From: Psychrobacter sp. P11G3
GTDB taxonomy: Bacteria > Pseudomonadota > Gammaproteobacteria > Pseudomonadales > Moraxellaceae
Assembly: GCF_001435845.1 (NCBI RefSeq)
Contig: NZ_CM003596.1
Span: 2,243,137-2,307,136 of the forward strand
DNA length: 64,000 nucleotides
Direction: 5' to 3'
The notes under the pieces were generated by a model. It did no database searches, had not been told where the DNA came from, and saw nothing but the letters and a program-made list of their open reading frames with translations. Position 1 is the stretch's first letter. Every line of letters starts with the position of its first letter. Shown here piece after piece: positions 2,459-13,955 of the stretch. The position numbers and the translations under genes were made by a program.

Positions 2459-4501
2459 TTACACGGTTAAAGTTGGCGTCGGCTTTCCAGCTGTTTTTAT
2501 ATTGAATGCAGCAATACCAAGGACGATCACACCACCTGCGATACCAGTCGTAATCTCAGGATAAATCAATAGTAAAGCACCAATAGCTAAGATGACACGA
2601 GTCACCGTATTCATACCGCCTCTGAAGTACCCTTCAAGTGCCGAGCTCAGCGCAATGACACCAGTTACTGAAGTCACTACTACGGTAATAATATCTACAA
2701 TAGGTGGCAGTGGGAAATCTTTTGCTGTAACTGCCAAACCGGTTGGATCTATCATCAACATCGTTGGATTATAGATAAACATGAACGGCACGATGAATCC
2801 CGCGAGGGCAAGTTTGAGGGACAAGAACCCTGTCTTCATCGGATCACCACCGGATATACCTGCACCCGCAAAGGCTGCAAGACACACAGGCGGTGTAATA
2901 TTGGCAAAGATACCAAAATAAAAAACAAACATGTGCGCTGACAAGATTGGAATATCAAAACCGGCCAATGCTGGCGCAGCCATCGTCGCCGTAATGATAT
3001 AGGCAGGAATAGAGGGTAATCCCATGCCCAAAACCATTGATGCCAACATCGTTAAGATAAGCGTAAAGAATAATGATCCTGCACCTAACGTGACGATAGA
3101 TGACGTCATCACCGTACCAAAACTGGTCAGACTCACCACCCCAATGATAATACCAACGACCGCACAAGCAGCCATAACCGCTAGCGACTGGCGCGCACCA
3201 TCTTCTAATGCACCTAAAATATCAGAAAAACTCATGCGCGTTTCGGCACGTAGCATACTGATCACAACGGTAAAGCCAATGGTATAAGCTGCTGCATATC
3301 CCACAGGTACGTTTCTGATTAATAAGAAAATCAAGAAGACAATCGGCAATAGCATATGACCGCGGGCTTTTAATACTTCTTTTACCGCTGGTAAATTTTC
3401 TTTGGCGATACCTTTTAGATCGCGACGTCCAGCACGGAAATGCACCTGCGCAATGACCCCTAAATAGTACAATATCGCTGGCAATAATGCTGCTAAGGCA
3501 ATCGTACTATACGGCAAGCCTGTTGTTTCAGCCATAATAAAGGCACTAGCACCCATAATCGGAGGCAAGATCTGTCCACCAACCGAAGCACTGGCCTCAA
3601 CTGCACCTGCGAAATCTTTGTGATAGCCGACCTTTTTCATCAACGGAATGGTAAAGGCACCCGTACTAACCACATTTGATAACGCAGAGCCATTAATACT
3701 GCCCATAAAGCCACTAGAGATGACCGCTACTTTTGCAGGGCCGCCCTTTTTGTGACCTGCGATGGCCAATGCCAAATCATTAAATAACTGCCCCATTCCT
3801 GAACGTGCTAAAAACGCACCGAACAGAATGAATAAGAAGATAAAGGTGACCGATGCCCCAATCGCAACAGAGTATAGACCTTCCGTTTTTAAGAATAATT
3901 GACCAAAGATATCACCCATATCATAAGGGCGAGTCAGCAGCCTATCGGGCATAAAATCTAAATGACTGACAAATGGATAGGCCAAAAATATGCCGGCCAA
4001 GATTGGCAAAATCCAACCAGTGATGCGGCGACTGCCTTCTAACACGCAGACTACCGTAATCAAAGAAAATATCACATCGACCTGATTGGCCATACCGCCA
4101 CGCGAGGTGACGATGTCTTGATACTCATAAATGAGATAGCCCATACCGGATAGAGACAGGGCAAACCAAATCCAGTCATACCATGCCACTCGTTTGCGAC
4201 TGCTTTTTTTGCTGGCTGGAAAAATTAGGAATATCAATGCAAAACCAACACCTACATGCACAGAGCGCTGTAACAATGCTGGCATTGGATTAAAAGTGAT
4301 ATATAAATGAAACAGTGAATATAGTATACAAATGCCAGCGATAAAATATTTTACTGGTCCTTGAGTGATATGACGCGTGATTGACTCTCGGTCATATTTT
4401 TCCAATACTGCTCGGTTGACCGCATCCGCCTCAGCATCGTTATCAACTTGAGCATCTGGCATGGTAGTCACACTACCTTGATCCGTCACTTGGGAGTTCA
4501 T
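2459..4501 (-). CDS. TRAP transporter fused permease (DctQ-DctM type, TAXI class)
   Basis: A hydrophobic protein of 680 residues forming the membrane part of a tripartite ATP-independent periplasmic (TRAP) transporter. The first ~190 residues hold short helices equivalent to the small DctQ-like subunit, and the rest is the large DctM-like subunit, with GFMGSINGSALSNVVSTGAF and GASAFIMAETTG as recognisable conserved loops. Such 4TM/12TM fusions pair with TAXI receptors, and one lies two genes upstream. The ORF could extend to a TTG at 4528, but the ATG at 4501 is preceded by AAGGAC at 7 bases, so I use that; it still overlaps the upstream gene by 29 bases, indicating co-translation. Uses an ion gradient; substrate unknown. 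Confidence 0.93.
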   Translation of the reverse strand: MNSQVTDQGSVTTMPDAQVDNDAEADAVNRAVLEKYDRESITRHITQGPVKYFIAGICILYSLFHLYITFNPMPALLQRSVHVGVGFALIFLIFPASKKSSRKRVAWYDWIWFALSLSGMGYLIYEYQDIVTSRGGMANQVDVIFSLITVVCVLEGSRRITGWILPILAGIFLAYPFVSHLDFMPDRLLTRPYDMGDIFGQLFLKTEGLYSVAIGASVTFIFLFILFGAFLARSGMGQLFNDLALAIAGHKKGGPAKVAVISSGFMGSINGSALSNVVSTGAFTIPLMKKVGYHKDFAGAVEASASVGGQILPPIMGASAFIMAETTGLPYSTIALAALLPAILYYLGVIAQVHFRAGRRDLKGIAKENLPAVKEVLKARGHMLLPIVFLIFLLIRNVPVGYAAAYTIGFTVVISMLRAETRMSFSDILGALEDGARQSLAVMAACAVVGIIIGVVSLTSFGTVMTSSIVTLGAGSLFFTLILTMLASMVLGMGLPSIPAYIITATMAAPALAGFDIPILSAHMFVFYFGIFANITPPVCLAAFAGAGISGGDPMKTGFLSLKLALAGFIVPFMFIYNPTMLMIDPTGLAVTAKDFPLPPIVDIITVVVTSVTGVIALSSALEGYFRGGMNTVTRVILAIGALLLIYPEITTGIAGGVIVLGIAAFNIKTAGKPTPTLTV

Positions 4502-5036
4502 GACAAAAGTCCTTTTTAAATCTATCAATTAAATCATACGTCTTAGGCATGATCACCACTTCAGAATAGTCTGGCACCCACTGGTGAATCAAGAAAAGAT
4601 GACCACCATAATCCATTTCACCTTTGGTCAGTCTAGATACGACCCAATTCAGGCGAGGCAGTTTTTCGTTGATTTGATAACCCAGATAGCCAGGCTTTTG
4701 TATAGGAGCGAGCATTTCGGTGGAGGGTGTCCCCGCACCGAACGCTTCAAAATAGGTCGTGGTCAATAACAGCTCCGCACCTTCTGTACTGCTGCCGTCT
4801 ATGCGTTGATACTGCTCTTCCCACCACTGTTTTTCTACAGAATGTATCCAACGTAGCTGAAAGTCAGGCTCAGTGAAGTAACAAACCTTATCATCAGCAC
4901 CGTCTACGCCTGCGACTCGCACTTCAACGACAGACTGAAGCGTAAAGCCTAACCATAGCGTAAAAAAAACCAGCGCTGCAATAAATGCCGCGCCAGTTGA
5001 TAACCATAATGAATTACTTAGCTGCTTGTTCGTCAT
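4473..5036 (-). CDS. DUF1850 family protein of the TRAP operon
   Basis: A 187-residue protein with one N-terminal membrane segment (about residues 12-34) and an extracytoplasmic domain containing the DUF1850 signature RWIHSVEKQWWEEQY. DUF1850 genes are repeatedly found between TAXI receptors and fused TRAP permeases, as here. Its start overlaps the receptor stop by 23 bases and its end overlaps the permease start, so the three genes form one tightly coupled operon. Its molecular role is not established; a helper for substrate delivery or assembly is a reasonable guess. Confidence 0.85.
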   Translation of the reverse strand: MTNKQLSNSLWLSTGAAFIAALVFFTLWLGFTLQSVVEVRVAGVDGADDKVCYFTEPDFQLRWIHSVEKQWWEEQYQRIDGSSTEGAELLLTTTYFEAFGAGTPSTEMLAPIQKPGYLGYQINEKLPRLNWVVSRLTKGEMDYGGHLFLIHQWVPDYSEVVIMPKTYDLIDRFKKDFCHELPSDGSR

Positions 5037-6033
5037 AGTACTTTTTAGCTCCAGGATGGATTGGGGCTACCATGCCATCACGAGCGGTTTCTAAACTGAT
5101 ATCATTGGCCGCTTGGTGAGCTGTTTTTAGACCATCTAGATTATCAAACAATGCTTTGGTTAGTTTATAACCATCCGCTTCAGATAGGTCAGAGCTAACC
5201 AATAATGCATTCATGATTGCGGCAGTTGGTACGGCTGTTTCGTTGCCATAAGTGCCAGCAGGAATCTCAAAGGTTTTGAAGTAAGGCTTGGTCGCGATGA
5301 TTTCTTTTAGCTTGTCTTGGTTGATAGTGACAATCTGTAAATCTAAACCTTGCTCTAACTCCATCAACGATGAGTTTGGTAGGCCACTACTAAAGAATGC
5401 CGCTTCGATCTTACCTGCTTTCATACCATCAGCAGCTTCAGCAAAGCCTAGATAATCAACGGTGACATCATCATATGTGATACCAAACCCTTCAAGTAAA
5501 GTACGAGCATTCACTTCTGTACCAGAACCTTGATCGCCTACCGCAATACGCTTGCCTCGTAAATCTTCAATGTTTTTGATACCAGATTTTTTCGAGGTCA
5601 CGATTTGCACCACATTAGGGTACAAAACAGCAATCTGCTGAATGTTAGTGATTGGCTGCTCAAAGTTGTTTTTACCTTCGACAGCATCCGTCACCACGTC
5701 ACTTAGTGCCAAGACCATGTCGACCTTGCCTTGGGTCAATAGATTGACGTTTTCGACTGATGCGCCAGTGGTTTGAGTTTTTGAGTTTACGCCAAAGGTT
5801 TTGACATAGACTTCAGACAATGAAGTACCAATGATGTTGTAAGGGCCAGACGCACCGCCAGTAGCGATGGTCAAAAACTTAGTATCAAGCTTATCTGCTG
5901 CAGTATCTGTTGCCGCGCTATCTGCAGATGCAGTATCACTGCCCTCTGAGCTTGGAGATGAGCATGCGGTTAGACCTAGCGCAGCACTCAACATAGCTGA
6001 CAAAAGTAATGGGGATTTTAAAGAATTAAGCAT
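5014..6033 (-). CDS. TAXI family TRAP transporter solute-binding lipoprotein
   Basis: A periplasmic substrate receptor of the TAXI (TRAP-associated extracytoplasmic immunogenic) family, 339 residues. The N-terminus MLNSLKSPLLLSAMLSAAL ends in a lipobox LTAC with the modified cysteine at residue 24, followed by a Ser/Asp/Ala-rich tether. The mature domain starts TIATGGASGPYNIIGTSLSE, the family's hallmark. The open frame extends to 6132 and another ATG lies at 6042, but AAGGA is placed 8 bases before the ATG at 6033 and that start gives a proper lipoprotein signal. It leads the three-gene TRAP operon. Family members often bind glutamate or other dicarboxylates; ligand not predictable here. Confidence 0.92.
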   Translation of the reverse strand: MLNSLKSPLLLSAMLSAALGLTACSSPSSEGSDTASADSAATDTAADKLDTKFLTIATGGASGPYNIIGTSLSEVYVKTFGVNSKTQTTGASVENVNLLTQGKVDMVLALSDVVTDAVEGKNNFEQPITNIQQIAVLYPNVVQIVTSKKSGIKNIEDLRGKRIAVGDQGSGTEVNARTLLEGFGITYDDVTVDYLGFAEAADGMKAGKIEAAFFSSGLPNSSLMELEQGLDLQIVTINQDKLKEIIATKPYFKTFEIPAGTYGNETAVPTAAIMNALLVSSDLSEADGYKLTKALFDNLDGLKTAHQAANDISLETARDGMVAPIHPGAKKYYDEQAAK

Positions 6034-6516
6034 TGAATTCATCCTTGAAGTGGTCGATTTTGTACGTTTAACAATATCCGTATTTATACATAAATACGTT
6101 ACAGACGAGTAATAATATAGTAATTCTGTCAATAAATAAACCTTAGCTTACTTTCTCTTTTTCTTTCAATACCTTATATTTAAAGCTATCAGAGAAAATA
6201 TAGGGCATTCATTAATTAAGCTAACATATACGTATGTTTTGCTATGCGAAACAAAGTTCCATTTAATAAATATTAAAACAAAAATTGTCGCTATTGTAAA
6301 CCTTTATCGATATCTGGAAAATATCGTCATATCGCATTATTTCTTAGGAATTTTTAGATATAGCAAATTAATAAGGACTCTCGATTTATAACTATCTCTA
6401 TTTATAACTATAAGGACAAAAGTTCTGCTATATTTTATCTGAGCTATTTTTTGGTTCAGGATATTACATGGCACTAGTCTGTGTCTCTCTTTTATTAACC
6501 CATTCGGATAGTCCTT
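6034..6516. other. intergenic, divergent promoter region
   Basis: AT-rich gap between the TRAP operon and mtnP. Several short TATCGATA-like and TATTTATAACTAT direct repeats occur around 6300-6420, but I saw no clear operator or RNA structure. Confidence 0.4.
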
Positions 6517-7410
6517 ATGACAATACCTCACACGGAAGTACTGGCAACGTTATCTGCTGATATTGCTATCATCGGTGGCAGCGGTCTCTACCAAATGTCA
6601 TCACTGACCAACAAACGCAGTGTGACAATACAGACGCCTTATGGCAGTCCATCTGATGATATTGTCTTAGGTGAGCTTGAGGGAGTGACAGTCGCATTTC
6701 TAACACGGCATGGTCAGGGCCACAGACTGACCCCGTCTGAAGTGCCTTATCGAGCCAATATCTATGCGCTAAAAACGCTTGGGGTACGCTATATCGTCTC
6801 CGTATCAGCAGTTGGCTCTCTACGAGAATCGCTTAAGCCACTAGATATGGTCGTGCCTGATCAAATGATCGATATGACCAAGCAGAGAGTGAGTACCTTT
6901 TTTGGTGAGGGTGCCGTCGCTCATGTGTCGATGGCTGAACCACTATGCACTGCCCTAGCAAACATCTTGACGCGCGCTTATGACCAAGCAGATATTGCAG
7001 AAGGTACCAGTCATTCTAAAGCAACTTATGTCTGTATCGAAGGGCCTCAATTCTCAACTCGAGCAGAGTCAGAATGGTATCGTCAGATGCAGGCAGACAT
7101 CATTGGCATGACCAATATGCCAGAAGCCAAATTGGCACGTGAAGCCAGTATTGCTTATGCCACGTTAGCTCTGGTGACAGACTTCGACTGTTGGCATCCG
7201 ACGGAAGAAGCCGTGAGTGCCGACTATGCTATAAAGAACCTATTAAAAAATGCGGATAATGCTCAAAAAGTGATACGGGAAGCTGTTGCTTTGATTGCTG
7301 CCGAACTACCTGAGTCAATCGCTCACAATGCCCTTGCACAAGCATTAGTCACACCTATAGATGCGATGGACGAACATACCAAGATCAGACTGGCCGCCTT
7401 ACTAACGTGA
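6517..7410 (+). CDS. mtnP: 5'-methylthioadenosine phosphorylase-type nucleoside phosphorylase
   Basis: A 297-residue enzyme of the PNP/MTAP phosphorylase family, which cleaves a purine (thio)nucleoside with phosphate into free base and sugar-1-phosphate. Visible motifs are the phosphate-binding GGSGLY near residue 20, TRHGQGH, IEGPQFSTRAES and GMTNMPEAKLAREASI; the last resembles methylthioadenosine phosphorylases rather than guanosine/inosine enzymes. The usual role is recycling the methylthioadenosine made in polyamine synthesis. It faces arsM across a shared terminator, next to the arsenosugar cluster, so it might also act on the arsenic-containing adenosine made by ArsS; that is inference. 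No strong Shine-Dalgarno is present. Confidence 0.88.
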   Translation: MTIPHTEVLATLSADIAIIGGSGLYQMSSLTNKRSVTIQTPYGSPSDDIVLGELEGVTVAFLTRHGQGHRLTPSEVPYRANIYALKTLGVRYIVSVSAVGSLRESLKPLDMVVPDQMIDMTKQRVSTFFGEGAVAHVSMAEPLCTALANILTRAYDQADIAEGTSHSKATYVCIEGPQFSTRAESEWYRQMQADIIGMTNMPEAKLAREASIAYATLALVTDFDCWHPTEEAVSADYAIKNLLKNADNAQKVIREAVALIAAELPESIAHNALAQALVTPIDAMDEHTKIRLAALLT

Positions 7411-7483
7411 TTGTAATGCGTCTTTTCCATTTTTAACTAAATACTTTCAATCGGTTTAGTCTTAATCTGACTTCAATCAAGTC

Positions 7484-7517
7484 AAAAAAGGCCATTATCT
7501 AAATTAATGGCCTTTTT
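7484..7517. terminator. bidirectional terminator between mtnP and arsM
   Basis: AAAAAAGGCCATTA, a 7-base loop, then TAATGGCCTTTTTT. The A and T tracts on opposite sides let it serve both convergent genes. Confidence 0.9.
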
Positions 7518-7567
7518 TATAATTTAGCATGTATATTTAAATTTATACTAAATACATCACTTTAGCA

Positions 7568-8611
7568 TTAGCAACAACCACCTGCACCAGATGCTAACAT
7601 CATAGGTTGATTAAACGGCATTAGCTCACCGCAGCCCGCAAAAATACCGTAGTGACGACTGTCATCACCGATAAACTCAAAATGCGGCGCAAAGCGCGAC
7701 TCTTGCAGCATGCGAAACGTATTGCCACATACTGGGAATACCCGACCAGCTTCGATAGCATGATGTTTATCTAAATCAAACCGATGCGGGGACTGCTCGA
7801 TAGTTCCTTTATATATCACCGCTTGTCCATGATCTTCGCAAGCATCCTCAAGCGAGTCGATTTTAAATAAGCGGTAAGTTGCAGAGAAAAACTGAATATC
7901 ACCAATTTTGGCTGCCAATGTAGGATCTGTAATCTCAAGTGGGCGATCTTCAACCAAACGTACGTCTAAGAATCCTGCATCTCGTGACAAACGGTTAAAA
8001 TCCTTCCAATACAATGCACCGCTCAAACATTCACCATATAAGACTGGGTCATCAATTAAGTGTTGCGGGATACGGCGATCGGCATAGACGTCAGAAAAAT
8101 AAAACTCCCCACCAGGTTTCAGCAAACGCTGCACACTGGCCATGACCGAAGCTTTATCTGGTGATAAATTGATAACGCAGTTTGAGACAATAATATCGAA
8201 GCTATTAGCTTCAAGGTCTAGTTCATCTAGTTTCTCGATATAGCCATGTAAAAACGTCACATTGTCATAGCCAAAATTCTCGACATGATAAGCTTGGTGC
8301 TGTTTGGCAACGGCTAGCTGCTCATCGGTCATATCAACACCGACTACGTGGCCACTCTCGCCAACTAATTGTGCTAGTGCATAGACATCTCGGCCTGAGC
8401 CACTGCCCAAATCTAAAATTCGGCAGCCTTCGAGCAGTGCTGGACATACCAGACCACAGCCATAATAGCGATTCAATACTTCATCGTGAATGTTTGCGAG
8501 TAATGGCTTGAGCCACTCAGGCATATTGCTAATATCACAACAAGCCGAAGTCTTTAAATCATCGGTACTCTGTAACTCTTTACCATAGTAATTTTGCACG
8601 ACGTCATGCAT
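7568..8611 (-). CDS. arsM: arsenite methyltransferase (arsenosugar type)
   Basis: ArsM transfers methyl groups from S-adenosylmethionine to arsenite, giving mono- and dimethylated arsenic. In this 347-residue protein the SAM site is RILDLGSGSGRDVY (residues 64-77). Cysteines typical of ArsM are present: C52 in YYGCG, C145 in SNCVINL and C195 in YGECLSGALYW. There are also CC pairs at residues 24-25 and at the extreme C-terminus (GGCC). The C-terminal ~100 residues, with VFPVCGNTFRML and SRFAPHFEFIGD, are typical of ArsM proteins encoded beside arsS. It is the last gene of the leftward arsenosugar cluster and ends at a shared terminator. Its dimethylarsenite product is the expected substrate of ArsS. 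Confidence 0.92.
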   Translation of the reverse strand: MHDVVQNYYGKELQSTDDLKTSACCDISNMPEWLKPLLANIHDEVLNRYYGCGLVCPALLEGCRILDLGSGSGRDVYALAQLVGESGHVVGVDMTDEQLAVAKQHQAYHVENFGYDNVTFLHGYIEKLDELDLEANSFDIIVSNCVINLSPDKASVMASVQRLLKPGGEFYFSDVYADRRIPQHLIDDPVLYGECLSGALYWKDFNRLSRDAGFLDVRLVEDRPLEITDPTLAAKIGDIQFFSATYRLFKIDSLEDACEDHGQAVIYKGTIEQSPHRFDLDKHHAIEAGRVFPVCGNTFRMLQESRFAPHFEFIGDDSRHYGIFAGCGELMPFNQPMMLASGAGGCC

Positions 8612-8726
8612 AACAATATCCTTATTGAATGTGCCATCCAGTTAAAAATCTTAGTAAACCATTTTAGAATATACAACTACGTTAGTGAGTTTATTAATCT
8701 ATTTGTCAATTATCCGTTATCAGCTA

Positions 8727-9389
8727 TCAGTCGTTATCGACTTTGGTATTGAGTTGAGAATCTAGCCAGCCTGACGGCAAATGTACTAGATCTTTAGGCT
8801 CATCAATATCAGGTAAAGGGTCGAATAGTGCAAGTGTCCAACCTAATGTGGCTATACGCTGCTTGGTGACAGCAGCAACACTAGGTGTACTCCAAACAAT
8901 GTCCGAAAACAGGCTTTCATCAACTCGCTTAAACCCTAACAGTACATACCCACCATCAGTCGCTGGAATCATGACCGCATCGTGTTGATTTAGCTGCTGT
9001 ATCGCTGTCTGAATACGTGCTGTCGTAAGACTAGGACAGTCCGTACCAATTAACACAACCTTGTCAAAATGTTGAAATACGCGCTGACTGGCTATCGACA
9101 TACGCAAACCCAAATCACCATCGGTCTGCATAGAGCAACGCAGTGAGCTAGGTAAATCAAGCGCCTGCCAGCATGGATCTGTTGGTGCTGGACTCACACA
9201 TAGCTCAACGGAAAAGCCTGTATCAACGGCCTGCTCAATACTATGCAGTAATAGTCGCCTTGCCATACGTGCAGCACCATCTACCCCTAGCGCTGGCTGC
9301 AAACGAGTCTTTGCCTTATTAGGCGCTGGATACTTTGCAAAAAGAATGATGCAGGTATCTTGCTGTTTTGCAGATGAATCAGCTGTCAC
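8727..9389 (-). CDS. TIGR04282 family arsenosugar-type glycosyltransferase (DUF2064)
   Basis: A 220-residue GT-A-fold nucleotide-sugar transferase of the DUF2064/TIGR04282 family. Motifs: IILFAKYPAPNKAKTRL at the N-terminus (nucleotide-binding loop with AKTRL), LIGTDCPSL in mid-protein (the metal-binding acidic residue lies here) and ATDGGYVLLGFK. Proteins of this family are routinely paired with TIGR04283 enzymes in arsenosugar clusters, as here. The start is GTG (9387-9389); the next in-frame methionine would remove the conserved N-terminus. Its sugar donor and acceptor are unproven; one idea is that it adds or activates the glycerol/sugar part of an arsenoriboside. Confidence 0.87.
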   Translation of the reverse strand: MTADSSAKQQDTCIILFAKYPAPNKAKTRLQPALGVDGAARMARRLLLHSIEQAVDTGFSVELCVSPAPTDPCWQALDLPSSLRCSMQTDGDLGLRMSIASQRVFQHFDKVVLIGTDCPSLTTARIQTAIQQLNQHDAVMIPATDGGYVLLGFKRVDESLFSDIVWSTPSVAAVTKQRIATLGWTLALFDPLPDIDEPKDLVHLPSGWLDSQLNTKVDND

Positions 9390-9473
9390 TATAACGGTCT
9401 CTCAATTAGTCAAATGCACGAGGACGAACTCTTTCTTATTTTGTCTATCATATTTATAAATCAAACAATCTCA

Positions 9474-10193
9474 CTACTTATGGTAGCGTTGCTTTAAAAC
9501 GTTAGGCGATACGCCGCGCCAATAATCAAAGCGTAAATGCCACATCAAGAAAATCGTCCGCCATGTACCATGCTGCTGCCAACGCCGCGCAGATGTTATG
9601 ACTTTGCTTTTTAGACAAGCTGGTCGAGCAAGTTTCTTTAGCCGTTTACAGAGCTCGATATCTTCCATCAATGGCTGATCAGGATAGCCACCAATCTGCT
9701 CGAACACGGACTTTTTAATAAAAATTGCTTGATCACCAGTGGCTATACTTAATAGACGTGAACGCTTATTTATCATTAATCCGACAATGTTTAACAATGG
9801 CTCATGACTATCTAAATGAACATCAAAACGTCCCCAATCGTACTGAGCTATTGCCTGCTGAACGTTATCTATCGCATCAGCTGGCAGCTCGGTATCAGCG
9901 TGTAAAAATAGCAACACATCACCTGTTGCTAACATAGCGCCCGCATTCATTTGCTGTGCGCGCCCTACCGTAGATTCGATAATATGCCAATCAGTGATTA
10001 ATTGAGCAGTCTCTATACTTTTGAGCACACTGTTGGCGATAGCAACCGAGCCATCTACTGAACCACCATCGACCAATATTACTTGCTGCGGTGCCGGATC
10101 GAGACGGACAATATGAGCCATAAGCTCAGGCAAGTTGTCCGCTTCATTTAATAATGGAACAATAATTGATAGGTTCAATGGATATACCGTCAC
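9474..10193 (-). CDS. TIGR04283 family arsenosugar-type glycosyltransferase
   Basis: A 239-residue family 2 glycosyltransferase. The N-terminus LSIIVPLLNEADNLPEL, the VILVDGGSVDGS segment and FLHADTELP (DxD-type metal motif, about residue 98) define the GT-A fold; MEDIELCKRLKKL is the likely catalytic-acid region and HGTWRTI lies near the C-terminus. There are no obvious membrane anchors. The start is GTG at 10191-10193 with no strong ribosome site. It lies 84 bases upstream of the TIGR04282 gene, and the two probably work in succession. Role in arsenosugar synthesis follows from family and context; no substrate is shown by the sequence. Confidence 0.87.
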   Translation of the reverse strand: MTVYPLNLSIIVPLLNEADNLPELMAHIVRLDPAPQQVILVDGGSVDGSVAIANSVLKSIETAQLITDWHIIESTVGRAQQMNAGAMLATGDVLLFLHADTELPADAIDNVQQAIAQYDWGRFDVHLDSHEPLLNIVGLMINKRSRLLSIATGDQAIFIKKSVFEQIGGYPDQPLMEDIELCKRLKKLARPACLKSKVITSARRWQQHGTWRTIFLMWHLRFDYWRGVSPNVLKQRYHK

Positions 10194-10222
10194 GTTATCA
10201 GCGAGTAAGATTAAAAACTGGC

Positions 10223-11044
10223 TTATTTTTTATTCAAATTCCAGTTGTAATCGGTATAGCTTACTTTTATCTTGCCTTGTTTGAGATCTGCTGTCTGAGC
10301 TTTACTCAATCCTAGTGACGAGCTGTAACGACCCAAAAACCCTGCTAAATCTTTGGTGCCACGCCAGTTGGTTGCAAAATCCTCTTTATACCATTTAAAA
10401 ATTGGTGATACTTTAAGCGTATCGCCTTTAAGACTGTTGCGGCTACTGTCTGCTAAAAACTTAGACGTCGCCTGCTCTAACTGACTGTCTAAACGCTTGC
10501 CGGTAAAGGCATCATCTTGTAATGCAGGGCAACCGATACTGGCACAATTGACCGCAAAGTGAATGCGCGGATCGTTGTAGCGTTTAGAGCCACGAATGAG
10601 ATTGTGCTCGATATCATCAAGTGAGCGCGTCTTACCGAGTACCGAAACGAACTCTTGCTTCCATGGTGACCCAAACAGTCCGCCGATATCTTTGATAGAT
10701 TTGACGTTTGGATATTTCGTCAATACCAAATCAACCGTACCAGCGTTATAAACGTTGATTAAAAATGCCAACTGCTCATTTTTACTCCAACGATTGAACT
10801 CTGATTGAGATACCTTGCTTGTCGCTTCCAGATAGCTTGTCAGCTTACTTTGATCTGCTTTCATGCCAGCATAATTGACCACTGAAGCTTTGCCACCGTT
10901 GGTCATAGTTACATGCTTACTTAGTAAGCTATCCCAGCTCTGATGGTTGAAGTCAGCATGAGCAGCCACGCTTGCTAATAAAATAGTCGTGGCAATCACT
11001 GGTTGGGCGAACAACGTTTTCGCTGAAAAATTAAATACCGACAT
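10223..11044 (-). CDS. secreted DUF547 domain protein
   Basis: A 273-residue exported protein. Residues 1-30 form a signal peptide ending AAHA-D, so the mature protein is periplasmic. The DUF547 domain spans most of the rest: FLINVYNAGTVDLVL, KSIKDIGGLFGSPWKQEFV, and RIHFAVNCASIGCP with a Cys/Ser/Cys motif resembling a thiol-protease-like active site. The biochemical activity of DUF547 is unknown to me. It sits 29 bases upstream of the TIGR04283 glycosyltransferase on the same strand and downstream of arsS, so it is part of the arsenosugar cluster by position, and it is the only member sent outside the cytoplasm. Confidence 0.88.
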   Translation of the reverse strand: MSVFNFSAKTLFAQPVIATTILLASVAAHADFNHQSWDSLLSKHVTMTNGGKASVVNYAGMKADQSKLTSYLEATSKVSQSEFNRWSKNEQLAFLINVYNAGTVDLVLTKYPNVKSIKDIGGLFGSPWKQEFVSVLGKTRSLDDIEHNLIRGSKRYNDPRIHFAVNCASIGCPALQDDAFTGKRLDSQLEQATSKFLADSSRNSLKGDTLKVSPIFKWYKEDFATNWRGTKDLAGFLGRYSSSLGLSKAQTADLKQGKIKVSYTDYNWNLNKK

Positions 11045-11170
11045 AAGGCTTACTCCGTTTACACTGATTGTTTTTTATCTAAATTTTTATGTATGCTAAA
11101 AGCACCTATGTTTAAAGTGTTTAGGCTTAAAACATAGGTGCTTATATTAAAAGCACTTACATTAGAGCGG

Positions 11171-12163
11171 CTAAGGCGTGTCTGCTAACGCTGGCTCTAC
11201 TGGCTCTTCTTCTAACGCGCCGCCACAACTACTGCCCTGTCCTGCTGTACAGCCATAGCAGTGGTCGGCAATGGCAATGTCATCACCAGACGGGTTTTGC
11301 GTTAACAAATCACTTAGGCGTTGTCGTGACTTGTTTGGTACAGGTATCTCTAACTGCTGATTGAAATCACAATCAAACAGCTCACCTAACCAATTGACAC
11401 TAATGGTCGAACGGCACATGACCTCGGCCAGATTAGCAGCCATATAATTGGCTTTGAGCAAATCCATATACGGGTGGAACTGTTTTTTTGCCAATAGCAC
11501 CGCACCAAACCGCTGAATTGGCATATTTGTTAGGGCAAATAGATGATTAAACTCGATGTCAAAGTGCGCTTTTAGCTCACGCTTGTAATCGGCTTCAAGC
11601 TGCTGTTGATTGGGTGGCAGCGTCGCACCTTGTGGGTTGTAAACCAAGTTTAATGTTAAATTTGAATCAAGCTTGCCATACCCCAGCTGATTGAGCTTCT
11701 GTAATCCCAATATGCTGTCATCAAACGCACCTTTGCCGCGCTGCTTGTCTACATTTTCTAGGGAATAACAAGGCAAAGATGCCACCACTTCCACTTGGTT
11801 ATCTGCCAAAAACTGCGCCATATCCTCATAGCCCTCTTCCATCAGAATGGTCAGATTACAGCGGTCTATTACTTTGACACCTAATGCCCGAGCGGCCTTG
11901 ACCAAATACTTAAAATCCTCATGCATTTCAGGCGCACCGCCGGTCAAATCAAGCGTATCGATGTTTTGTGCTTGTAATACCTTCGGTATCAGCTCGACCA
12001 ACTCACGTGACATCATCTCGGTACGATAAGGGCTTGCAGCCACATGACAGTGCACACAGGACATATTGCATAAGTAGCCCATATTGACTTGTAATATCGT
12101 CAATTGGCGTCGTTTTATCGCTGGAAAATCAGTATGCTCAAGTAGCTCGATAGTTGATTTCAT
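11171..12163 (-). CDS. arsS: arsenosugar biosynthesis radical SAM protein ArsS
   Basis: A 330-residue radical SAM enzyme. The SAM cluster motif CNMSCVHC has cysteines 32, 36 and 39. The C-terminal half is the DUF3641-type domain with CRSTISVNWLGELFDCDFNQ and a cysteine-rich tail (HCYGCTAGQGSSCGGALEE) likely to bind a second cluster or arsenic; some relatives carry selenocysteine in this tail, but here all codons are ordinary. Published work on cyanobacterial ArsS shows it joins the deoxyadenosyl group of SAM to dimethylarsenite, making the precursor of arsenosugars. arsM, which makes that substrate, is four genes downstream on the same strand. Confidence 0.93.
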   Translation of the reverse strand: MKSTIELLEHTDFPAIKRRQLTILQVNMGYLCNMSCVHCHVAASPYRTEMMSRELVELIPKVLQAQNIDTLDLTGGAPEMHEDFKYLVKAARALGVKVIDRCNLTILMEEGYEDMAQFLADNQVEVVASLPCYSLENVDKQRGKGAFDDSILGLQKLNQLGYGKLDSNLTLNLVYNPQGATLPPNQQQLEADYKRELKAHFDIEFNHLFALTNMPIQRFGAVLLAKKQFHPYMDLLKANYMAANLAEVMCRSTISVNWLGELFDCDFNQQLEIPVPNKSRQRLSDLLTQNPSGDDIAIADHCYGCTAGQGSSCGGALEEEPVEPALADTP

Positions 12164-12394
12164 GGTGGTCTAAAATCCTGTTAGCAGTACAACTAAAAAA
12201 GGATAGCAACGTGACATTAAAGATTAGAAAACAAAGTTAGCGCATTGCTTTTACTGTTTATTTTTAAGATTTACAACGTAAAACCCACTTGCTCATTTTA
12301 CGGTTTATCTAATCAATCATACCTGATTATCAATAAGCATTGACAACTAATCACATGGATTTTATGGTTTATTCCAAATGAGCATTAACCTTCG

Positions 12395-13585
12395 TTAGTT
12401 CTTATCGGCTTCAATGAAACGCTTATCGATATATTTCTTGAGATGCCATACCCATCGACCTTGTAGATTTACATTACCCCAACTACCAATGGCGTATTTA
12501 TTACCGCAAGACAGTAGATATAACGTACGCGATTTTGGCTGATAACTCTTCATTATGCTCTCTTTTAGATAAGCCAATAAATTATCGGCTTCGACAGCAC
12601 CGCCATGCACTGAGTGAACCCCCGAGTGCGCCACGTATTTATCGACTCGTGTCGCCACATCACCAACCGCAAACACATTAGGATGAGAGACGCTCTGTTG
12701 CTTATCGTTTACCGCGACAAACCCATCACCTTCGATTTCCAAATCCGTAGAAGCCGTCCATGCCGAGCCTATGACGCCAGTCGCAGCGATGACAGCATTT
12801 ATGAGCAATGATTTATGCGTAGTTGATAATTTGCCATCATGATAATCGGTCGCTCGTTCTCGAACTATCGTAATGTCATGACGATGTAATTGCTTAATAA
12901 CCCGCTGTCGAAAGTTTGAGTTAAACCCTGACAATAGATTCTCACCGCATACTAATGTCACCTGATGATTACGATTGATGTTCCGTAGCGTGACTTGGGC
13001 TGCCATCACCAACTCTATTGCCGCAGCGCCTGCCCCAATAATAGCCAATTGATACTTTTCAGACTGCTGAGCGGCTTTTAGAATCCGCTGCCATTGCGTG
13101 ATAAATGTTGACAACGGTCGTATGGCAATCACGTTAGTATTAGCAGCGCCAGTATTGTTATCGTCATTATCGCTTCTGTACTCGTTGTAGCTATTGTGGT
13201 CAGGTAGCCAACGCATGTCTGTATCTGCGCCCGTATTTAGAGACAAGACATCGTAGTCAAAATCCGTTTGTTCATCGCCAGTCGTAACCACCTTATTTGA
13301 CGCTGCGTTTACTTGTACAAGCGATTGCTGAATAAAGCGCACACCTGCTCGCACACAAAGCGATTTGATATCAATACTGATATCATGCAACTGATAATGC
13401 CCTGCCATCCAACCCGGTAACATGCCAGAATATATCGTTTGCGGTTGCTCACTAATTAAGTGAATGTCCGCATCTATAGTATCGGCATCTTTTAAACGCG
13501 CTGCGCTAAGTCGGCGTAACATGCCAATGTGAGCATGACCTGCGCCTGCCAATAGTAATGTCTTTTTCGATGAAAATTTCGTCAT
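12395..13585 (-). CDS. FAD-dependent NAD(P)-type oxidoreductase of the SelD-N/NDH-2 kind
   Basis: A 396-residue pyridine-nucleotide-disulfide-oxidoreductase-like flavoprotein. The FAD-binding motif is LLLAGAGHAHIGMLRRL at the N-terminus; a second dinucleotide motif, AIIGAGAAAIELVMAA, lies near residue 182; and NVFAVGDVATRVDKYVAHSGV is the conserved C-terminal FAD motif. This GxGHxH form is the one found fused to SelD (selenide, water dikinase) in some organisms, but no SelD domain is present. No redox-active CxxxxC pair is seen, as in NDH-2 enzymes. The ATG at 13585 is used rather than the TTG at 13600. It lies 231 bases upstream of arsS on the same strand and may reduce pentavalent arsenicals for the pathway; that is a guess. 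Confidence 0.82.
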   Translation of the reverse strand: MTKFSSKKTLLLAGAGHAHIGMLRRLSAARLKDADTIDADIHLISEQPQTIYSGMLPGWMAGHYQLHDISIDIKSLCVRAGVRFIQQSLVQVNAASNKVVTTGDEQTDFDYDVLSLNTGADTDMRWLPDHNSYNEYRSDNDDNNTGAANTNVIAIRPLSTFITQWQRILKAAQQSEKYQLAIIGAGAAAIELVMAAQVTLRNINRNHQVTLVCGENLLSGFNSNFRQRVIKQLHRHDITIVRERATDYHDGKLSTTHKSLLINAVIAATGVIGSAWTASTDLEIEGDGFVAVNDKQQSVSHPNVFAVGDVATRVDKYVAHSGVHSVHGGAVEADNLLAYLKESIMKSYQPKSRTLYLLSCGNKYAIGSWGNVNLQGRWVWHLKKYIDKRFIEADKN

Positions 13586-13955
13586 AGATGATTTTATCAA
13601 GGCGGTTGGTTGCTGTTAGTGTTTGATCGAATGTTGATTGATATAAATGACTTTAAAAACTCATTTAAAAGTATCATATAAATAAGACCAGTCTGTTGCG
13701 GGCAAACAGTAAGAGCGTAAATGGCTTGTATGTGGCTTATATAGACTCAGCGATAGTCACTGCGTCAACCGTTATTAGTAGAATGAGATTTTGTATAACT
13801 GAATTAAAATCATAAAATAAGGTGAAATTATTTATCATCGCCCAGTACAATAGGACATTATAAGAGCCGCATGATAAATTGCGCTGCTTGACCCATTATT
13901 TGAGAAACATCGTCAAAACCGTTAATGAAAATTATAAGTAATCAAGGAACATTAC
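13586..13955. other. intergenic, divergent promoter region
   Basis: Gap between the FAD oxidoreductase (leftward) and the alpha/beta hydrolase (rightward). AT-rich with no clear hairpin or operator; it should contain the promoter of the arsenosugar cluster. I did not see an obvious ArsR-type palindrome. Confidence 0.4.

Follow-up and report, generated by a model that had tools for sequence, protein, structure and literature searches.

What does a block of arsenic and sugar-transfer genes make, and what is a methylthioadenosine phosphorylase-like gene (MTAP) doing at its edge? The question is raised by a stretch of 64,000 nucleotides from Psychrobacter sp. P11G3 (contig NZ_CM003596.1, positions 2,243,137 to 2,307,136; hereafter the window), in which a listing of open reading frames (ORFs) and profile searches placed, at 6517-13600, an MTAP gene on the plus strand facing six co-oriented minus-strand genes. 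We consider it reasonably probable that this is an arsenosugar-type biosynthetic cluster working via a sugar-1-phosphate route. The seven genes are as follows, with profile scores in bits.

6517..7410, plus strand: MTAP-like phosphorylase, convergent on the cluster (TIGR01694, 328, cut-off 274.85)
7568..8611, minus strand: ArsM-like arsenite methyltransferase (best profile PRK11873, 175.6, under the cut-off of 263)
8727..9389, minus strand: TIGR04282 protein, DUF2064 (TIGR04282, 201.1, cut-off 134; F420_cofC, 44; Pfam CofC, 25.1, cut-off 22)
9474..10193, minus strand: TIGR04283 GT2-type glycosyltransferase (TIGR04283, 269.8, cut-off 182; PF00535)
10223..11044, minus strand: DUF547 protein with an N-terminal signal-like segment (PF04784, 98.2, cut-off 27)
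11171..12163, minus strand: ArsS, a radical S-adenosylmethionine (SAM) enzyme (TIGR04167, 466.9, cut-off 300; PF12345)
12395..13600, minus strand: TIGR03169-like FAD/NAD(P) oxidoreductase (TIGR03169, 286.7, under the cut-off of 310; PF07992)

The initial annotation had described a contiguous arsenosugar-type cluster, and all seven ORFs were found where it put them and in the families it gave, two of them under the cut-off; the flavoprotein ORF opens at a TTG at 13600, and its first internal ATG is at 13585, the end reported earlier. ArsS scored over the curated cut-off of TIGR04167 and carries the radical SAM cysteines, and the TIGR04282 and TIGR04283 families adjoin it, both over cut-off. The ArsM-like protein stayed under both NCBIfam cut-offs, that of PRK11873 and that of the arsenosugar-ArsM model NF038099 (103.1 bits, cut-off 400); these models may be too narrow for it. 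The layout is more than chance, since it recurs in 60 of 105 genomes of the genus and the transferase genes and MTAP also occur beside ArsS outside it. A promoter scan gave sites at shuffle level (20 against a shuffled mean of 20.2), and terminator-like sites numbered 14 against 6.3 in shuffles.

The genus sample comprised 105 Psychrobacter genomes, and the cluster region was taken from 60 of them (from two contigs in G095). ArsS scored over cut-off in 57 genomes, and MTAP matched at E<=1e-30 in 60 (59 over cut-off), namely in all 57 genomes with ArsS and in three of the 48 without it (G072, G090 and G092), so that the converging phosphorylase is truly part of the cluster, as first proposed. 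A TIGR04283 match was obtained in 63 genomes, the same 60 as for MTAP, including all 57 with ArsS, plus three weak ones; the gene is partial and under cut-off in G049 and G075. Over the 60 cluster genomes, TIGR04282 was present in 60, DUF547 in 57, ArsM in 37 (35 of them with ArsS) and the flavoprotein in 34, rarer genes being a VTT/MerA-like fusion (7) and a HAD-IB phosphatase (2). In all 59 genomes with everything on one contig, MTAP points towards the rest of the cluster. Scattering of the genes in close relatives, which the initial annotation had named as counting against it, was thus not what we found. Cluster genes are broken in G051 (MTAP), in G060, G075 and G049 (TIGR04283) and in G004 (DUF547); in G051, G075 and G049 breaks also occur in neighbouring genes (DapD, TAXI or others), pointing to assembly error in those three.

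The block is flanked, in most cluster genomes, by a TRAP/TAXI transporter set on one side and an alpha/beta hydrolase-DapD pair on the other. We examined this site in 11 of the 45 cluster-free genomes and found no cluster gene within 15 kb around the hydrolase in any of them: the recognised gene nearest the hydrolase was TAXI in four, an amidohydrolase alone lay between in two, LipA was close without the TRAP set in three, and other unidentified ORFs followed in two. The complete absence of cluster genes from these sites indicates that the block, MTAP included, is gained or lost as one. The transporter set (window 2459-6132) comprises a TAXI-type binding protein, a DUF1850-like protein and a fused TRAP permease, the labels TAXI and DUF1850 being ones we assume; it is the immediate neighbour of MTAP in most cluster genomes, and several cluster-free genomes retain it there.

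MTAP belongs to the MtnP family, scoring over the TIGR01694 cut-off and carrying Asp222 and Asp224, a pair that we take to recognise 6-aminopurines, in all 59 full-length genus copies. MtnA was found in 0 of the 105 genus genomes (E<=1e-20) and methylthioadenosine (MTA)/S-adenosylhomocysteine nucleosidase likewise in 0 of 105, with the same searches detecting them in 9 and 6, respectively, of the 14 control genomes, which argues that MTAP does not serve standard methionine salvage in this genus. It is an MtnP-family enzyme outside the standard salvage pathway that appears to belong to the arsenosugar-type cluster.

We then turned to a class sample of 276 genomes (E<=1e-60 for ArsS, E<=1e-40 for the MTAP family), in which ArsS was present in 142 genomes and the MTAP family in 198, the latter count including short MTIP-like proteins (21 of 30 loci inspected). 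MTAP-family proteins occurred in 136 of the 142 genomes with ArsS and in 62 of the 134 without it. Because this raw association is partly confounded by salvage, genomes were split by MtnA. Among the 103 without MtnA, 22 had both ArsS and MTAP, 3 ArsS only, 13 MTAP only and 65 neither (Fisher p 1.3e-10), a strong difference in MTAP share (22/25 with ArsS against 13/78 without); among the 173 with MtnA the corresponding numbers were 114, 3, 49 and 7 (p 0.014), a weak one (114/117 against 49/56), and both p-values overstate independence, as the genomes are related.

The closest solved relative of MTAP is RsfP from an Antarctic soil metagenome (PDB 4glf and 4glj; 542 bits over residues 3-296 of 297). 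Ala235 and Ala238 were present in all 59 full-length genus copies, and 11 relatives near ArsS (10 chromosomal, 1 on a plasmid) have Ala or Thr at the first position and Ala at the second. Genus and clade-I MTAPs have Ala/Ala where the other long MTAPs in the comparison have Val or Ile, and 21 short MTIP-like proteins have Met, Leu or Ile followed by Ile. The human counterparts of the two positions are presumably Val233 and Val236 in the methylthio pocket, and the smaller pair would suit a bulkier dimethylarsinoyl group. In RsfP the neighbouring Ile239 is reported to contact a ligand in the pocket (PMC3561333).

ArsS shares 93-96% identity with named Psychrobacter proteins and loci, and its CxxxCxxC cysteines (Cys32/36/39) are kept in 74 of 74 copies from outside the genus and in 55-57 of 57 genus copies. 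Adenosylation of arsenic by ArsS has been reported (PMC12159101); by analogy with other bacteria, where the enzyme creates the As-C5' bond in the precursor of arsenosugars, we assign it the same putative role here. In the ArsM-like protein Cys24, 25, 52, 145 and 195 are kept in all 37 genus copies and in all 9 copies of >=50% identity from outside the genus.

The initial annotation had called the set complete, which goes too far: with the window's ArsM as query (E<=1e-5), ArsM was not found in 22 of the 57 relatives with ArsS, the flavoprotein was found in 34 of the 60 cluster genomes, and the window itself is without the VTT/MerA-like fusion that is near ArsS in 38 of 74 loci outside the genus. 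The 22 genomes, 20 of which are at least 99% complete, give only partial ArsM matches of 29-33% identity, like those found elsewhere in the window's own genome. Parsimony required 4 changes in ArsM presence on each of two trees, one of ArsS (57 tips) and one of LipA+DapD (47 tips). We compared the ratio of nonsynonymous to synonymous substitution rates (dN/dS) in 16 ArsM-less genomes of the main group, 3 of a second group and 16 with ArsM selected from the 35. In that order, the median for ArsS was 0.100 (115 pairs; inflated by a lower dS), 0.049 (3 pairs) and 0.032 (77 pairs), and for LipA 0.027, 0.017 and 0.021; TIGR04283 was higher too (0.242 against 0.149). Selection on ArsS in the ArsM-less lineage is purifying, perhaps relaxed; decay of the cluster there was considered and set aside, ArsS values of 0.05-0.10 being those of purifying selection. 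ArsM would thus be dispensable, with ArsM-less genomes either taking up methylated arsenicals or having an ArsS that accepts arsenite. One ArsS-less genome has a 70%-identical ArsM inside a 585-codon open frame (G077:C63:107731-108726).

Both transferase genes had initially been taken as glycosyltransferases, and for TIGR04282 this had to be revised, as it models as a nucleotidyltransferase instead. An AlphaFold2 (AF2) model (mean pLDDT, the predicted local distance difference test, 93.8; 45 sequences) was searched with Foldseek, and the best 50 of 1361 matches were inspected. The first was 3cgx, a structural-genomics relative, followed by MM2497, a probable nucleotidyltransferase, and the others included Rv2983, 3-phosphoglycerate guanylyltransferase, KdsB, IspD, GlmU and cytidylyl/uridylyltransferases; a glycosyltransferase fold was not nearest, ranks 2-50 being nucleotidyl-, guanylyl- or cytidylyltransferases or Rv2983/Rv0371c, whose function is unnamed. 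Against CofC, Rv2983 and 3-phosphoglycerate guanylyltransferase the TM score was about 0.65-0.69 on the query at 17-21% identity, a likeness in fold. The conserved motifs K-T-R-L, G-x-D-x-P and D-G-G-Y would fit a CofC-like active site, and from the modelled fold and the weak CofC profile matches we read this protein, named a glycosyltransferase, as a probable CofC-like nucleotidyltransferase. A TIGR04282 gene has elsewhere been named 'fbiD' (PMC8801600). DUF547 has invariant Cys167, Cys172 and His162 (17 aligned sequences); residues 1-29 of its AF2 model are disordered, and a fold search of the PDB gave 0 matches at E<=0.001. The TIGR03169-like flavoprotein could possibly supply reductant or reduce As(V). 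In two genomes the HAD-IB phosphatase gene lies between DUF547 and TIGR04283 (L043:10460-11044 and L044:10522-11106) and could remove phosphate from the glycosylated product.

To look beyond the genus, we took the best 80 ArsS loci of at least 594 matching stretches; 74 were non-Psychrobacter, nearly all from Proteobacteria, 40 with at least 20 kb of DNA and 34 with less. Neighbours of ArsS at these 74 loci were TIGR04283 (53), TIGR04282 (48), the VTT/MerA-like protein (38), ArsM (13), MTAP (12), the flavoprotein (12) and DUF547 (10). Twelve MTAPs in 74 loci correspond to a binomial tail of 1e-11 at an assumed 1% chance per locus. MTAP is directly upstream of ArsS with a 6-base gap in four Microbulbifer loci and, in two more loci, with gaps of 22 and 91 bases, the remaining ones having other orientations; in two further class genomes, G196 and G303, the spacing is 37 and 33 bases (match coordinates). 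A mobilizable Acinetobacter portensis plasmid (NZ_CP096121.1, 125070-150014; L234) shares arsS, DUF547, TIGR04283, TIGR04282, the ArsM-like methyltransferase (70% identity) and a convergent mtnP (70% identity) with the window; it differs in an extra VTT/FAD-oxidoreductase fusion, in an inorganic phosphate transporter gene that separates the methyltransferase from mtnP, and in that the TIGR03169 gene is missing in the stretch examined. Also recurrent near ArsS outside the genus were a TIGR02943-type sigma-70 factor (14 of 74 loci, e.g. L168:13353-13961), a 381-aa protein without a Pfam match at E<=1e-8 (10 loci), DUF3047 (10 loci) and parts of a phosphonate-type ABC transporter (5 loci each, by clustering).

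In the pathway that we propose, ArsM would methylate arsenite and ArsS would attach the 5'-deoxyadenosyl group of SAM to the arsenical, by chemistry known from elsewhere. MTAP would then use phosphate to strip adenine off the ArsS product, giving 5-arsino-5-deoxyribose-1-phosphate; TIGR04282, judging by its fold, would activate this arsenoribose-1-phosphate with a nucleoside triphosphate, and the GT2-type TIGR04283 would move the activated sugar onto an aglycone, perhaps a glycerol derivative. The flavoprotein might supply electrons or reduce arsenic, and DUF547 has no place in the scheme. The order phosphorolysis, activation, transfer is chemically coherent, because phosphorolysis, not hydrolysis, yields the 1-phosphate that a nucleotidyltransferase needs. 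Phosphorolysis gives an alpha-1-phosphate, and an inverting GT2 enzyme would turn it into a beta-riboside, as in natural arsenosugars; this stereochemistry fits the proposed route. We further put forward, tentatively, that the pathway core consists of ArsS together with a specialised phosphorylase, a nucleotidyltransferase and a GT2 enzyme, with arsenoribose carried as 1-phosphate and then as nucleotide sugar rather than freed by a nucleosidase; ArsM would be optional, and ArsS in the 22 ArsM-less genomes may use external methylated arsenicals or arsenite directly, leading to arsenoribosides with other methylation states. That the host makes organoarsenicals, as initially claimed, is a fair inference from its gene content.

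Several observations weigh against this reading. Curated cut-offs are missed by two cluster proteins, the ArsM-like protein and the flavoprotein, and by these only, and ArsM is lacking from the 22 genomes discussed above. ArsS is nowhere over cut-off in G072, G090 and G092, though MTAP and both transferase genes are kept. MTAP was not seen within the examined DNA of 62 of the 74 outside ArsS loci (34 of the 74 being under 20 kb), an MTAP-family match is absent from 6 of the 142 class genomes with ArsS, and part of the class count is made up of the short MTIP-like proteins. Positions 235/238 are Val and Val/Ile in four further MTAPs near ArsS, and five long MTAPs not near ArsS, all from genomes with ArsS, have Val/Ile at both (among them G208 and G293, within ~1 kb of MtnA by coordinates, and the MtnA-negative G229 and G329), so Ala/Ala is not a general requirement.

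The three genomes without ArsS (G072, G092 and G090; loci L039, L040 and L041) keep MTAP, TIGR04282, TIGR04283, DUF547, the flavoprotein and the VTT/MerA-like fusion; in G090 ArsM is missing too, and a glycine-betaine-type ABC transporter separates the two transferase genes. Retention of MTAP there would be expected if arsenosugars were made but MTAP cleaned up 5'-deoxyadenosine or MTA from radical SAM chemistry, adenine being removed by another enzyme. MTAP family enzymes accept 5'-deoxyadenosine, and as no MTA nucleosidase match was found in the genus such a need could exist. Yet 45 of the 48 genomes without ArsS lack MTAP despite many radical SAM enzymes (counted in the window's own genome only), and MTAP stays with both transferase genes even after loss of ArsS; we regard this explanation as unlikely.

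More doubtful still is that, instead of an arsenosugar, the cluster makes a different metalloid or thio sugar, such as a selenium compound. The model names rSAM_SeCys (TIGR04167, first named for selenocysteine-bearing members) and Nterm_to_SelD (TIGR03169, SelD fusion) point that way, and TIGR04167 is placed among selenoprotein families (PMC9312934), but the ArsM-like partner has conserved cysteines and the reported substrate of ArsS adenosylation is arsenic.

That MTAP is a methionine-salvage gene and merely a neighbour of the cluster is, in our judgement, very improbable. Public records annotate it so, and 163 of the 173 class genomes with MtnA have MTAP; for this genus, however, the salvage role is close to refuted by the absence of MtnA and nucleosidase and by the MtnA-split class counts, in which MTAP tracks ArsS in MtnA-negative genomes, and MTAP is absent from all 11 cluster-free sites examined. 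Finally, MTAP could reduce arsenate by nucleoside arsenolysis and feed arsenite to ArsM and ArsS, as arsenate reduction linked to purine nucleoside phosphorylase (PNP) has been described in vitro (PMC12608789), but no genomic feature favours this and the 235/238 difference touches the 5'-substituent and not the phosphate site (a site assignment that in part we assume), so we give it hardly any weight.

Set beside known systems, the arsenosugar-type cluster resembles the cyanobacterial pathway (Synechocystis ArsM and ArsS) in its ArsM-like protein and in an ArsS of the same NCBIfam model, and a Synechococcus elongatus control matches TIGR04167 and TIGR04283; compared by enzymes and not by gene neighbourhood, it differs in that the ArsM-like protein is under the arsenosugar-ArsM cut-off and in having MTAP, TIGR04282, TIGR04283, DUF547 and the flavoprotein alongside. 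The arsinothricin cluster arsQML likewise combines a radical SAM enzyme and ArsM to give a C-As natural product, but with another radical SAM enzyme and product, and the available text names no sugar-transfer genes (PMC8552651). RsfP was called a methylthioadenosine phosphorylase, with rhodamine B in its active pocket, and read as a methionine-salvage enzyme, the accessible part of that paper mentioning neither arsenic nor an activity assay (PMC3561333). A nucleosidase step has been proposed for an algal arsenolipid (PMC10456119); beyond it, the literature searched, as far as its text was available, contained no assignment of post-ArsS steps and no proposal of MTAP in an arsenosugar pathway, and an earlier proposal may exist.

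Arsenosugars are among the major arsenic compounds of the sea. If our reading is true, enzymes would be named for the next three steps after ArsS, a phosphorylase crystallised as a salvage enzyme would be linked to arsenic, the widely used family name of TIGR04282 would be corrected, and culturable heterotrophs would be available for stepwise single-gene testing of the pathway.

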